Shown here: positions 1 to 5,135 of the stretch, piece after piece | Layout: every line of letters begins with the position of its first letter | Numbering within the stretch: position 1 is the stretch's first letter | Assembly (NCBI GenBank): GCA_040755755.1 | Contig: JBFLZW010000048.1 | Location: forward strand, 1 to 5,135 | DNA length: 5,135 nucleotides | Direction: 5' to 3' | DNA from: a bacterium | GTDB taxonomy: Bacteria > SZUA-182 > DTGQ01 | Position numbers and translations under genes: made by a program | Notes under the pieces: model-generated | Databases searched by the model: none | What the model was told of the DNA's origin: nothing | The model's input: the letters and a program-made list of their open reading frames with translations, nothing else

Positions 1-693
1 GTGATCGGTAAGCCAATCCGTAAGCTCTATTGCTGCCAGTGGCAAGCATGGCCACTCCGTACAGTAATACAGGTTGCTCGGTACCGCCGATCCACAAGTA
101 AGCTTGCCGATCCTCTCCCTTAATCGCTGGTCCGAGTCCTCAAGCGCCAGGTAGAGCACGTCGGCTTGTGGTACATCTACGGAGCTTAACACTTTGCCCC
201 CATAGGCCACACCGAGTCCCCAATGCAAAGACAGCCAGCTCTTGCCAACCTTGGGTTTGCCCGCCAGTATGGTAAGGCCCTGTGGCAACAAGCCAGGTAT
301 GATCCATTGGATCGGTGGTATATCCCGCTGCATCAACTCCGCTACGCTTGCTGGTTGTGGCCTGCTCGGTGTTACTGGTTTGGCTTGCTGCTCTGGCTGA
401 GCCTGCTTACCTCTGCTTGCTGCTGTGGCCAGCAATATGGTCCGCTTACCATATGTCCGGCCCTGGTCATCGGGGTAATTGTCCCATTTGTTGGCGATGC
501 CTGGCCATGCCGGAGCCTGTCGGATAAGCTGATCGATCCGGTCAGCATCTATACCCAGTCCGGCCATAATACGGCATAGGCCAATATCCCAATCCGGCAC
601 CTGCCCTTGCAGGTAATCCTTACCAGATCTGCCTTGGTACTTGGCTGAGGCTATTGCCTCGATTGCTTGTTGCTTATCAACCTGCTCTGCCAT
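1..693 (-). CDS. Replicative helicase-like AAA ATPase (RepA / AAA_25 type), 5' part, truncated by the left window edge
   Basis: The frame is open from an ATG at 693 to the edge, giving 231 residues. The start is supported by GGAGAG seven bases upstream. Residues about 34-90 resemble the small helical domain that precedes many phage and plasmid helicases (GIDADRIDQLIRQ, then RTYGKRTILLA). A Q/P-rich linker follows (about 95-117). The ATPase core begins near 125 (PPIQWIIPGLLPQGLTIL). It carries a Walker A motif GKPKVGKS at 145-152 and a Walker B-like strand VLYLALED at 179-186, followed by DSDQRLRERI. This arrangement is typical of RepA/AAA_25 RecA-fold ATPases that act as hexameric DNA helicases or primase-helicases in plasmid and phage replication. 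The C-terminal half lies outside the window, so the sensor and arginine-finger residues cannot be checked. The long, structured upstream region suggests regulated expression. The family call is firm; the exact role in replication is inferred. Confidence 0.9.
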   Translation of the reverse strand, partial: MAEQVDKQQAIEAIASAKYQGRSGKDYLQGQVPDWDIGLCRIMAGLGIDADRIDQLIRQAPAWPGIANKWDNYPDDQGRTYGKRTILLATAASRGKQAQPEQQAKPVTPSRPQPASVAELMQRDIPPIQWIIPGLLPQGLTILAGKPKVGKSWLSLHWGLGVAYGGKVLSSVDVPQADVLYLALEDSDQRLRERIGKLTCGSAVPSNLYYCTEWPCLPLAAIELTDWLTDH

Positions 694-717
694 TAGTCTG
701 CTCTCCGTATCTTGATC

Positions 718-746
718 TTGCGAAAACCAACAAACAGTGATACAAC
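718..746 (+). promoter_or_regulatory. Candidate plus-strand promoter for an antisense RNA
   Basis: TTGCGA (718-723), a 17-base spacer and TACAAC (741-746) resemble a sigma70 promoter, each hexamer matching consensus at 4 of 6 positions. TG at 738-739 gives an extended -10 (TGATACAAC). It lies between the helicase start codon and the structured region ending in the plus-strand terminator. The hexamers are imperfect, so this is only a candidate. Confidence 0.35.
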
Positions 747-749
747 TAA

Positions 750-778
750 AAAAACGGGGCACACCCGTATAACGGGGC
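750..778 (-). promoter_or_regulatory. Candidate attenuator: overlapping alternative hairpins plus U-tract in the helicase leader
   Basis: Read on the minus strand, the order is CCCCGT (777-772), ACGGG (768-764), CCCCGT (759-754), then a run of T. The first and third segments are identical, and each can pair with the middle one. Pairing of the second and third gives a five-base-pair stem directly followed by seven U, a small intrinsic terminator. Pairing of the first and second would prevent it. Mutually exclusive hairpins of this kind are the hallmark of transcription attenuation. The stems are short, so strength is uncertain. It could instead be a simple terminator for the gene upstream. Confidence 0.4.
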
Positions 779-867
779 ATGATACCGCCCTACATACTGG
801 TATCACAGCTAAGGGATCGAGACGGTTATCTTTGCGGGATGGTCGTTTCGATCCCTTAAGTTTTTTG
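753..867 (+). ncRNA. Candidate structured antisense RNA, about 115 nt, opposite the helicase leader
   Basis: Starting just after the candidate promoter at 718-746, the plus strand holds three successive hairpins and no credible gene. The first is ACGGG (754-758) with CCCGT (764-768). The second is GATACCG (781-787) with TGGTATC (798-804). The third is the long terminator stem at 810-858. The long stem contains four G-U pairs that exist only in plus-strand RNA; in the minus strand they would be A-C mismatches. That argues for function as a plus-strand transcript. It lies entirely within the region upstream of the helicase start codon, so it would be fully complementary to that mRNA's leader. 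This layout is familiar from plasmid copy-number control RNAs. No known RNA family was recognised, and the ends are estimates. Confidence 0.45.
810..866 (+). terminator. Strong intrinsic terminator on the plus strand
   Basis: Bases 810-830 pair without interruption with 838-858: 21 base pairs, four of them G-U, with a seven-base loop (831-837). Two bases later comes TTTTTT (861-866). In minus-strand RNA only the outer 11 pairs would be unbroken. No plus-strand protein gene precedes it, which is why a non-coding transcript is proposed. Confidence 0.7.
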
Positions 868-904
868 GAGCATAATTTGTTTATTTTTTTGAAGCAAACA
901 AAAT

Positions 905-962
905 ATGACGACTACCTGATTATTCTGAGTAGTCATGACTACCTCAAATCAAAGGTAGTCAT
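905..962. repeat. Four alternating copies of a GACTACC motif (operator-like)
   Basis: GACTACC occurs at 910-916 and 937-943, and its complement at 929-934 (GTAGTC) and 954-960 (GGTAGTC). The central pair forms a perfect 14-bp palindrome, GTAGTCATGACTAC, at 929-942. The outer right pair forms a perfect 10-bp inverted repeat (935-944 with 953-962). The right end overlaps the stop codon of the 250-aa gene. The arrangement suggests a dimeric or multimeric regulator's binding sites, or alternative RNA stems at the 3' end of the upstream gene. Confidence 0.6.
919..947 (-). promoter_or_regulatory. Candidate promoter for the helicase gene
   Basis: On the minus strand, TTGAGG (947-942) is separated by exactly 17 bases from AATAAT (924-919), a five-of-six match to TATAAT. 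The spacer is almost filled by the 14-bp palindrome at 929-942, where a regulator would control RNA polymerase directly. Transcription would begin near 912, giving a leader of about 220 nt before the helicase ATG at 693. The -35 is only a partial match. Confidence 0.45.
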
Positions 963-1711
963 CTTTTCCTTTCCTTTACCTGCCCATATTCCCCCGGAAA
1001 GATATTTTTCCCAACATTTTCAATGATATCTCTTGCATTGTCTCTTTCTCGCTGCCACACTTTGAGATGAATACTTTTATGGATTCCGTTATCAGCATTA
1101 ACTCTTTGTATAACATCTTTCCAGTTGAGCTTTTCAACTTCTCTCAGGTGATAGACTTCCAGGTATCGCCGAAGGTTTTTGAGATCGCTTTCAGATAGCC
1201 TTTTGCTTGGCAAGGGAAAACGGGGATGTTTTTTGATGGGATTTATCTTAAGCTCTTCTTGTTTCTTGCTTATAATCAACCTAATTTGTTCCATCAGGTC
1301 ATCTATGGGCACATTCAGAGGAATTCCAATGGTAAAGAAATTAGGGTCTCGCAGAATTTTTGAGAATTCCGGGAAGAATGTCGGCAGGTTCGGAAAGGGG
1401 AGAATATCTTTAGGTGGCTGATATCGATACATCCGCTGCTGAATATCACAAAGCTTTTCCTCCCATGAGAGGTTATGAACATCTCCCCAGTCCCAAAAAA
1501 CGAGGGTGAGGTTTTTGACTTGATTAAATCCAAGATTCTCGATCTGACGCATAAACAATGATTCATGTTCATGGTCAATTAATTTTGTAGACTCCCTCAC
1601 GACATAGCATATTTTTTCATAATCCTTGTTTAGCTTCAGGTACTCATACCATAGGCGATAAGCCTCTTGATTTTCTATTGTTCCTGTTAAAAGGGAGTGT
1701 AGTAAATTCAT
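959..1711 (-). CDS. Uncharacterised 250-aa protein with N-terminal WYEYLKL domain and basic C-terminal helical region
   Basis: I chose the ATG at 1711 because GAGAGG lies eight bases upstream. An in-frame TTG at 1771 would add 20 residues but has no good ribosome binding site. Residues about 15-35 (EAYRLWYEYLKLNKDY) form a compact W/Y-rich helix seen in uncharacterised proteins of Proteobacteria and mobile elements. Residues 66-135 look like an alpha/beta region (KNLTLVFWDWGDVHNLSW, then DPNFFTIGIPLNVPIDDL). Residues about 175-245 are helical and basic, with LRRYLEVYHLRE, a WKDVIQRV helix and RERDNARDIIENVGKNIFPGEY, which could be a helix-turn-helix-like nucleic-acid-binding segment. No catalytic motif was recognised. 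It lies between the small coupled genes and the helicase. Function is unknown; the coding call is firm. Confidence 0.85.
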   Translation of the reverse strand: MNLLHSLLTGTIENQEAYRLWYEYLKLNKDYEKICYVVRESTKLIDHEHESLFMRQIENLGFNQVKNLTLVFWDWGDVHNLSWEEKLCDIQQRMYRYQPPKDILPFPNLPTFFPEFSKILRDPNFFTIGIPLNVPIDDLMEQIRLIISKKQEELKINPIKKHPRFPLPSKRLSESDLKNLRRYLEVYHLREVEKLNWKDVIQRVNADNGIHKSIHLKVWQRERDNARDIIENVGKNIFPGEYGQVKERKR

Positions 1712-1815
1712 TCCTGCATCCTCTCTGCATTCAGTAAATGTTATGCTGCCCGGCCTCCTAGATGCAGACAAAGAGCCTTGTCGGTGAGTTCATGACGCTT
1801 ACCCAAGGGCAGCGT

Positions 1816-2562: not shown

Positions 2563-2898
2563 CTATTTCATCAGGGTAAGCAAAGTGAAAATAGCTGCTG
2601 TATAGGCAATCAAAAGACCGGCAACCCAACTGACAACCCACTTGACCGTGCTGGATTTTGCTTGCTCGATCTCCGATCTGACCTTCTCTATTTCCAGCTT
2701 GACCGATTCAATCTCTTTGGTCAGCTTAAGCTCGGTTTCCCGGATATCCCCTTTTACTTCCCGGATATCCTCTTTCGTTGCCAATTCCCGCTTATGGTCA
2801 CTTATCAGGGTTTCAATATCCCTTACCGCTGCCTGAGCTTTTTCCTTGCCGAAGGTCTCAGAGAAGATATCGAACAGTTCTATTGCCTCGATGCTCAT
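2563..2898 (-). CDS. DUF1640-like coiled-coil protein with C-terminal membrane anchor
   Basis: This 111-aa protein has three parts. Residues 1-35 are helical (MSIEAIELFDIFSETFGKEK and following). Residues about 36-84 are a highly charged coiled coil (ELATKEDIREVKGDIRETEL, then KEIESVKLEIEKVRSEIEQ). Residues about 86-109 are a hydrophobic span (VKWVVSWVAGLLIAYTAAIF) with only LLTLMK after it. This is the layout of bacterial DUF1640/CCDC90-like proteins: a short N-terminal helix, coiled coil and C-terminal transmembrane anchor, usually oligomeric. The bulk is probably cytoplasmic. A 13-base DNA repeat 21 bases apart encodes one duplicated heptad (DIRE at 45 and 52). Its ATG overlaps the stop of the ribbon-helix-helix gene (ATGA), implying coupled translation. 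Family role is unknown; a link to the inner membrane is inferred. Confidence 0.85.
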   Translation of the reverse strand: MSIEAIELFDIFSETFGKEKAQAAVRDIETLISDHKRELATKEDIREVKGDIRETELKLTKEIESVKLEIEKVRSEIEQAKSSTVKWVVSWVAGLLIAYTAAIFTLLTLMK

Positions 2899-3059
2899 CT
2901 TGTGGCCACCTTTGGTTCATTTTTAGGATATTTTGACCTAAGTTCATTTTCAATAATTTCAGTCAATTTTTGCTTTATGCTTTTTCTCTCTTTGGCCGCT
3001 AATACCTTAAGTTCATTCCAAAGATCATCGTCCATGATAATTTGATGACTTTTTTCCAT
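2895..3059 (-). CDS. Ribbon-helix-helix (Arc/CopG-like) regulator, 54 aa
   Basis: Direct translation gives 54 residues. AAAGGAG is centred about ten bases upstream of the ATG at 3059. The pattern fits a ribbon-helix-helix DNA-binding protein: a short beta strand (SHQIIMDDDLWNELK), helix A (LWNELKVLAAKERKS) and helix B (IKQKLTEIIENELRSKY), then a short tail ending in Arg at 54. Such proteins dimerise, and the paired strands read the major groove of short direct or inverted repeats. They often autoregulate as plasmid partition, copy-control or antitoxin proteins. Here the promoter upstream carries direct and inverted repeats that would suit autorepression. The stop overlaps the start of the DUF1640-like gene, which does not resemble a known toxin, so a toxin-antitoxin label is not justified. 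Confidence 0.8.
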   Translation of the reverse strand: MEKSHQIIMDDDLWNELKVLAAKERKSIKQKLTEIIENELRSKYPKNEPKVATR

Positions 3060-4785: not shown

Positions 4786-4894
4786 CACCGTATAAAATCC
4801 TTTCTTTTTGCTCGGAGAGGGTTCCGGCCCTCCAGGTAATATTCAACTCAATGGTGGTATAATTACCTTTCTCATCGCGTACCATATTTCCCAT
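4775..4894 (-). CDS. -1 frame continuation of the right-edge gene, or separate 39-aa ORF
   Basis: From an ATG at 4894 this frame encodes MGNMVRDEKGNYTTIELNIT followed by WRAGTLSEQKERILYGDEA, ending TGA at 4775. There is no clear ribosome binding site. The DEKGNYTTIELNITWRAG segment looks like a beta hairpin and joins naturally to the upstream frame (QWEIWYAMRK, then GNYTTIELN) if the ribosome or the DNA shifts by -1 at 4873-4867. I therefore think it is more likely the C-terminus of the same protein than an independent gene. Read alone, it would be a small overlapping gene of unknown function. Confidence 0.5.
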   Translation of the reverse strand: MGNMVRDEKGNYTTIELNITWRAGTLSEQKERILYGDEA

Positions 4895-5135
4895 TGGATC
4901 ACGCCAGCAGCATCTTTGGCAAAGCGATGCTCCCGGCCATTCTCAATCTGCTTCCAGAGTGTCCAGTCGGTCAGGTCATCGGTGATTCCAGTAAGGTATT
5001 GTAGCGAAGAGGAAATCAATTCCTTCCTATCGGAATTGCAGGGGATAGCCTGAGCCTGAGCAGGTTTTTCAGGCTCAGGCTTAACGGCGTGGCAGATCGC
5101 CGCTCCCTGCAAATATGCAATAGCCTCTCGTTTGT
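4843..5135 (-). CDS. Unknown gene, 3' part, truncated by the right window edge; frame probably interrupted
   Basis: The frame is open from the edge for 96 codons to a TGA at 4843, so the true start lies outside. A TTG at 5112 has no special support as a start. Visible parts are a helix (KREAIAYLQGAAICHAV), a Pro/Glu/Gln linker (KPEPEKPAQAQA) encoded by a 12-bp inverted repeat, and a globular segment rich in W (ITDDLTDWTLWKQIENGREH, then FAKDAAGVIQWEIWYAM). The last residues before the stop (KVIIPPLS) look unlike the rest. The adjacent -1 frame gives a far more protein-like ending. No family was recognised. It precedes the TerS-like gene and is probably in its operon. Confidence 0.6.
   Translation of the reverse strand, partial: KREAIAYLQGAAICHAVKPEPEKPAQAQAIPCNSDRKELISSSLQYLTGITDDLTDWTLWKQIENGREHRFAKDAAGVIQWEIWYAMRKVIIPPLS
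5047..5081. repeat. 12-bp perfect inverted repeat inside the right-edge gene
   Basis: AGCCTGAGCCTG (5047-5058) is repeated inverted as CAGGCTCAGGCT (5070-5081) around an 11-base loop. It encodes the Pro/Glu/Gln/Ala linker of the protein, and each arm contains two near-identical six-base units (GCCTGA). It may simply reflect low-complexity linker codons. Confidence 0.6.

Follow-up and report, generated by a model that had tools for sequence, protein, structure and literature searches.

Antisense control of copy number is best known for the initiator genes of plasmids, mostly in Firmicutes and enterobacteria. In pT181 the antisense RNA binds upstream and the arms of the terminator stay free. 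The known plasmid systems use an antisense RNA against the leader of a rep gene (PMC5703833, PMC4981023), and in pIP501 tandem repressor sites lie over the rep promoter (PMC4981023, PMC5703833).

Here we describe a gap before a helicase-like gene in a window (the whole stretch of DNA that was analysed) which comprises all 5135 bp of contig C48, part of a draft genome of 5.26 Mb. The gap is probably a real antisense-RNA control region, i.e. it would be the control region of a helicase gene on a phage-like element. In the mechanism that we propose, a plus-strand RNA of about 114 nt would start beside the helicase start codon, run away from the gene and end at a 23-bp hairpin. This antisense RNA would have its complement in the middle part of the leader of the helicase mRNA; the leader in turn would start near position 912, at a promoter with tandem operator-like dyads. 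We infer the two transcripts, their starts and their pairing, as well as an effect on the helicase level and a role in copy control: the antisense RNA would pair with the nascent leader, and less helicase would be made as copies of the element build up. Most likely, the antisense RNA would capture the CCCCGT pre-emptor at 777-772, upon which ACGGG would pair with the second CCCCGT and transcription would stop at the U-tract 754-748. This pT181-like attenuation step is plausible, and we put it forward tentatively, with less than even confidence; for the antisense copy-control model of the helicase gap as a whole we see an even chance. If true, antisense control ahead of a gene for a helicase-like protein, located on a phage-like element of a barely sampled phylum (represented in our comparison set by nine species, own genome counted), would add a new class of replication gene.

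The element and its genes

1 to 693, minus strand: 5' part of the helicase-like gene, an AAA_25 ATPase; it runs off the contig end, and its ATG is at 693
959 to 1771, minus strand: upstream ORF of 250-270 aa
2086 to 2125, minus strand: TATGACAC, a phased array of 11-bp repeats that borders the swapped module on the left; also at 5963-6005 of contig C51, plus strand

The genes of C48 lie on the minus strand, and one of them encodes the small subunit of a terminase (Pfam Terminase_2, 54.6 bits); the element is phage-like. An earlier note on this DNA spoke of a replicative helicase gene. The gene at the left edge has an AAA_25 ATPase domain (Pfam, 69.6 bits) and a weak match to NrS-1 HBD, a helix-bundle domain (23.7 bits); the replicative role is a fair guess. 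The upstream ORF, separated from the helicase ATG by 265 bp, had no above-threshold match in Pfam, PHROGs, NCBIfam, or phage or plasmid records. A 54-aa ORF at 2895-3059 gave only weak ribbon-helix-helix matches in the profile libraries. An inverted repeat of 13-14 bp (AGCCTGAGCCTGA...TCAGGCTCAGGCT, window 5047-5081) lies inside the ORF at the right edge (4843-5133, minus strand). By eye this ORF resembles one (L007, 3-515, minus strand) that comes after an AAA_25 gene in a congeneric genome, so C48 may be a cut circle in which the right-edge ORF would follow the helicase gene.

A second contig of the same genome, C51 (L005, 7191 bp), had escaped the earlier note. It carries the same helicase gene (94% protein identity). 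The last 127 bases are identical in C48 and C51, as would be expected of a branch point in the assembly, and the two elements may share a cell or stem from mixed strains. On one side the aligned DNA homology sets in at the helicase ATG; on the other it stops just beyond the phased TATGACAC repeats and ATGACGAGTG. The stretches between these borders are unrelated in sequence, with three ORFs and the 265-bp gap on C48 and, on C51, a gap of about 280 bp and a 71-aa ORF that reads by eye as a Cro-like helix-turn-helix protein and was recognised by no library searched. The helicase start is fixed at 693, since this ATG is common to both contigs and an in-frame stop lies 5' of it on C51; the same stop, just 5' of the shared ATG, rules out a start at the ATG at 780.

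Elsewhere on C51 (791-5468) there are a ParB/KorB-like ORF, a transposase pair of the IS21 type, a primase-like gene (DUF3991/Toprim) and a fragment of a serine recombinase. The phased 11-bp arrays (TATGACACNNN) border the swapped module on C48 as well as on C51, and 8 viral contigs contain a three-unit pattern in a context that is otherwise different; the arrays are possibly a widespread phage operator or iteron.

The plus-strand hairpin and the predicted antisense RNA

718 to 746, plus strand: candidate antisense promoter, TTGCGA-17-(TGA)TACAAC, score 8.18, rank 13 in the window, start near 753
753 to 866, plus strand: predicted antisense RNA, about 114 nt long, with a folding energy of -49.8 kcal/mol (z -6.2)
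810 to 858, then TTTTTT at 861-866, plus strand: predicted intrinsic terminator, a 23-bp hairpin with a UGC loop

The stem at 810-858 consists of 23 contiguous pairs with a UGC loop, followed by AG and six U. It is conspicuous that all six imperfections are G·U pairs on the plus strand and A·C mismatches on the minus strand. The folding energy of the hairpin is -30.5 kcal/mol on the plus strand (z = -7.0). In a comparison of the strands the energies are -29.5 kcal/mol for plus and -19.6 kcal/mol for minus, where the stem breaks up at the A·C positions. As the six imperfections pair on the plus strand only, the plus-strand RNA is the one that folds. Reading the direction of an RNA from such G·U asymmetry is an established approach (RNAstrand, PMC1892782). 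By our own calculation, the chance that all six imperfections favour the plus strand is about 1/64 if they are strand-random, even assuming transitions throughout. The longest comparable stem in 60 shuffled windows had 14 pairs, versus the 23 seen here, and in 400 kb of host DNA one stem attains 23 pairs, without a U-tract. The hairpin was found once in the genome, which rules out a MITE-like mobile repeat.

The earlier note had placed an extended -10 promoter, hairpins and a strong terminator on the plus strand, and all of these are there: TG-A-TACAAC at 738-746, with the -35 hexamer TTGCGA at 718-723 and a 17 bp spacer between them, the hairpins up to 858, and TTTTTT at 861-866. The promoter is 63 nt upstream of the stem. 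The size given for this unit, about 115 nt complementary to the leader, agrees with the predicted RNA of 753-866, which would stop 93 nt before the upstream ORF (ORF end at 959). The strand-specific wobble pairs and the layout of C51 support the prediction that the plus strand gives rise to a short RNA opposite the helicase leader, which is probably correct. RNA from the window had no Rfam match at or above the curated gathering threshold; matches obtained with relaxed thresholds (plant miRNAs, RsaD, Ref66) were dismissed, being far below the gathering scores and alike in hairpin shape only. The YUNR loop motif is absent from the hairpin loops of the window RNA. In the same check, CUCG was found in the loop of the C51 antisense RNA.

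The leader and the candidate attenuator

764 to 777, minus strand: candidate pre-emptor hairpin, CCCGT-TAT-ACGGG, competing with the terminator in partition-function calculations
748 to 768, minus strand: candidate attenuator terminator, ACGGG-TGTGC-CCCGT, then six free U

The minus strand contains the competing segments that had been described, i.e. CCCCGT at 777-772, ACGGG at 768-764 and CCCCGT at 759-754. One pairing was said to end in seven U; the seven U are present at 754-748, but the first is paired in the stem and six are free. The attenuator hairpin 768-754 has a 5-bp stem, and its folding energy of -6.5 kcal/mol (z = -1.6) marks it as weak. The probability of this terminator is 0.02-0.03 in the free leader, folded from 912 to the end of the U-tract, and 0.96 with the leader upstream of the stem masked. 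In other words, the competition of the pre-emptor for the 5' arm of the terminator is an in silico result (masking, P from 0.03 to 0.96). A terminator of this class (six U in seven) was seen in 5 of 2000 dinucleotide shuffles of the leader and the switch in none of the 2000, whereas 412 kb of real sequence, both strands (825 kb of strand), gave 26 such terminators and 6 switches; these figures are descriptive and are not unbiased P-values, because the criteria were set after the site was seen. This site is the only one among the 6 switches that has a strong opposite-strand terminator just upstream.

In the earlier note, capture of the first CCCCGT by the antisense RNA was to free ACGGG. The computed ensembles do switch, but an antisense RNA with its 5' end at the predicted start 753 would not leave the terminator arms free, it would cover both. 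The probability of the terminator is 0 when the duplex reaches 765 and is high only if the duplex ends at about 769-776. This overlap is the main weakness of the pT181-like reading. On the nascent transcript the fast terminator hairpin could form first; alternatively, the true antisense start could lie downstream of 753.

Interference of the lambda OOP kind, or RNase III action, is the main rival to the attenuation step. Here the antisense RNA would act without attenuation, by polymerase collision or through a duplex cut by RNase III, and the 5-bp attenuator would be incidental. Lambda OOP is a short antisense RNA with its promoter at the start of the replication gene O, and it interferes with pR transcription (PMC3985674). 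In favour of this alternative, the attenuator lies within the stretch that the predicted antisense RNA covers and would be blocked by full pairing, and the gap of C51 has an antisense unit and no matching sense terminator. However, the sharp computed switch in the same gap is left unexplained and the RNA falls short of the upstream gene, whereas OOP overlies cII, and we regard this explanation as unlikely.

Promoters and tandem dyads

919 to 947, minus strand: candidate sense promoter, TTGAGG-17-AATAAT, score 8.76, rank 10 in the window, start near 912
908 to 962, no strand assigned: two tandem dyads, ATGACTACCT/AGGTAGTCAT, candidate operator, or two-way terminator ending the ORF 959-1771

The minus-strand promoter is where it had been reported, with TTGAGG at 947-942, a 17-bp spacer and AATAAT at 924-919, and a start near 912 gives 220 nt to the ATG at 693, in line with the leader length of about 220 nt proposed before. 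The promoter scores are from an approximate E. coli matrix that may not suit the host lineage. Neither candidate promoter is significant alone, because they rank 10 and 13 in the window and because a simple promoter scan of the 5-kb window found 8 sites versus 7.5 expected.

The region 908-962 contains four GTAGTCAT/ATGACTAC copies that span the minus promoter and had gone unnoticed before. The count of this dyad motif in the window was reached by none of 200 shuffles, the folded dyads have z values of -5.0/-6.0, and their central palindrome is unique in the genome. The dyads look like an operator and, less probably, a two-way terminator. The latter would end the ORF 959-1771, there would be no promoter at 947-919, and the leader would start elsewhere. 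The dyads overlap the stop codon of this ORF, form strong folds on either strand and have T-rich tails behind them (ATTTTGTTT on the minus strand, CTTTTCCTTT on the plus strand), all of which agrees with termination. On the other hand, the T tails are interrupted, and the loop of one dyad holds the sense -10, the loop edge of the other the -35, as an operator predicts. We find the terminator interpretation rather improbable.

The AACGGGGCA repeats, considered as protein sites, occur in two copies, which is within chance for the window. The AT-rich part at 850-909 is compatible with a replication origin; an origin in the gap was rejected, as no DnaA box (at most 1 mismatch) was found there.

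The layout of the sister element

C51, 6057-6085: sense promoter, third-best site of the contig
C51, 6180-6154: antisense promoter, fifth-best site of the contig
C51, 6121-6097: antisense terminator, then TTTGTTT

The earlier note had asked for a comparison with the same gap in related elements. On C51 the layout is repeated, but the sequence is unrelated. The predicted C51 antisense RNA spans about 60 nt, 6147-6088, and lies opposite the leader start. The C51 leader (6097-6155) contains three competing segments, GCCCCTTAG, CTAAGGGGC and GCTCCTTAG, the last without a U-tract after it.

Nine promoter-plus-terminator units were counted in 825 kb of strand, three of them on C48 and C51: one in the antisense direction in each gap, and a third on the minus strand of C48 (the promoter at 919 with the stem 781-760). 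The expected number per intergenic strand of the size of the gap is 0.004-0.05, depending on the threshold; for the count the promoter threshold was 8.1, set just under the window's own score. That the layout recurs although the sequences are unrelated speaks most strongly for these being functional units, and it differs in kind from a covariation test. One layout realised in two sequences points to antisense control modules that could be exchanged, as is the case in the copy control of plasmids. In its full form, this proposal states that two phage-like elements in one genome would carry exchangeable antisense modules, unrelated in sequence and cut at the helicase start codon, with a plasmid-like incompatibility system based on the helicase gene in place of an initiator and an antisense RNA covering its own attenuator; we give it a low probability. 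If true, the module swap between sister elements would be a natural case of compatibility types.

It is quite unlikely that 810-866 is a plain terminator or insulator, ending stray plus-strand transcription from the helicase gene with no dedicated small RNA and with the helicase expressed by read-through or from its own promoter, for although lone terminators turn up fairly often between genes (expectation 0.01-0.12 for one strand of this size) and the plus promoter is weak, a promoter on the right strand lies 63 nt before the stem, the arrangement is repeated in the C51 gap, and there is no plus-strand gene whose transcript would need ending.

Distribution among relatives

No homologue of the gap turned up, either by DNA comparison with the own genome, 59 further genomes, phages and plasmids or by pattern in viral contigs; one 35-nt match was seen in G022 (L003). 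The helicase relatives taken for comparison, 29-55% identical throughout, came from genomes (59 loci) and from viral contigs (80 loci). Upstream of 122 distant relatives, antisense terminators were not enriched (6 versus 7 sense), so the feature is not a trait of the helicase family. A relative from the Chloroflexota (Anaerolineae, L078) has a 13-bp antisense hairpin, then a T run, just before the helicase ORF, possibly an independent case.

Comparison with known systems

The earlier note had likened the gap to attenuation in the pT181 and pIP501 families. The computed switch favours the likeness, but the terminator is covered by the antisense RNA and the gene is no known plasmid initiator. 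With pIP501/Inc18 (RNAIII, CopR, repR leader) the gap shares a long leader, a counter-transcribed RNA of similar length (136 nt versus about 114 nt predicted here), a candidate terminator before the gene and tandem sites over the sense promoter (PMC4981023, PMC5703833). It differs in that the gene encodes an AAA_25 helicase-like ATPase and not RepR, the sequences are unrelated, and the predicted antisense RNA covers the terminator; no cop gene was identified in the window, where the 54-aa ORF at 2895-3059 has weak ribbon-helix-helix matches. With pT181 (RNAI, repC) the gap shares the order of pre-emptor, terminator 5' arm and 3' arm as well as the U-tract just before the gene (PMC5703833). The differences are the 5-bp stem, the 23-bp antisense terminator, the overlap of antisense RNA and attenuator, and the initiator: the gene downstream is an AAA_25 ATPase, neither RepC (Rep_trans) nor of the RepR type.

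Lambda OOP and pO offer the likeness of a short antisense RNA whose promoter lies next to the start of a phage replication gene and which runs away from that gene to an intrinsic terminator (PMC3985674). OOP, however, pairs with the 3' end of cII, whereas here the predicted RNA ends at 866 and the upstream ORF at 959, i.e. 93 nt apart, and an attenuator is no part of the OOP system. RNAI of pSK41 (RepA_N plasmids) is likewise a short antisense RNA, of about 83 nt, against a rep leader (PMC5703833), but pSK41 acts on translation by sequestering the ribosome site, while the candidate switch here carries a U-tract. Because the initiator gene is absent and the geometry of antisense RNA and terminator differs, the gap is not a member of the pIP501 or pT181 families; it would work like their control, at the start of a helicase-like gene.
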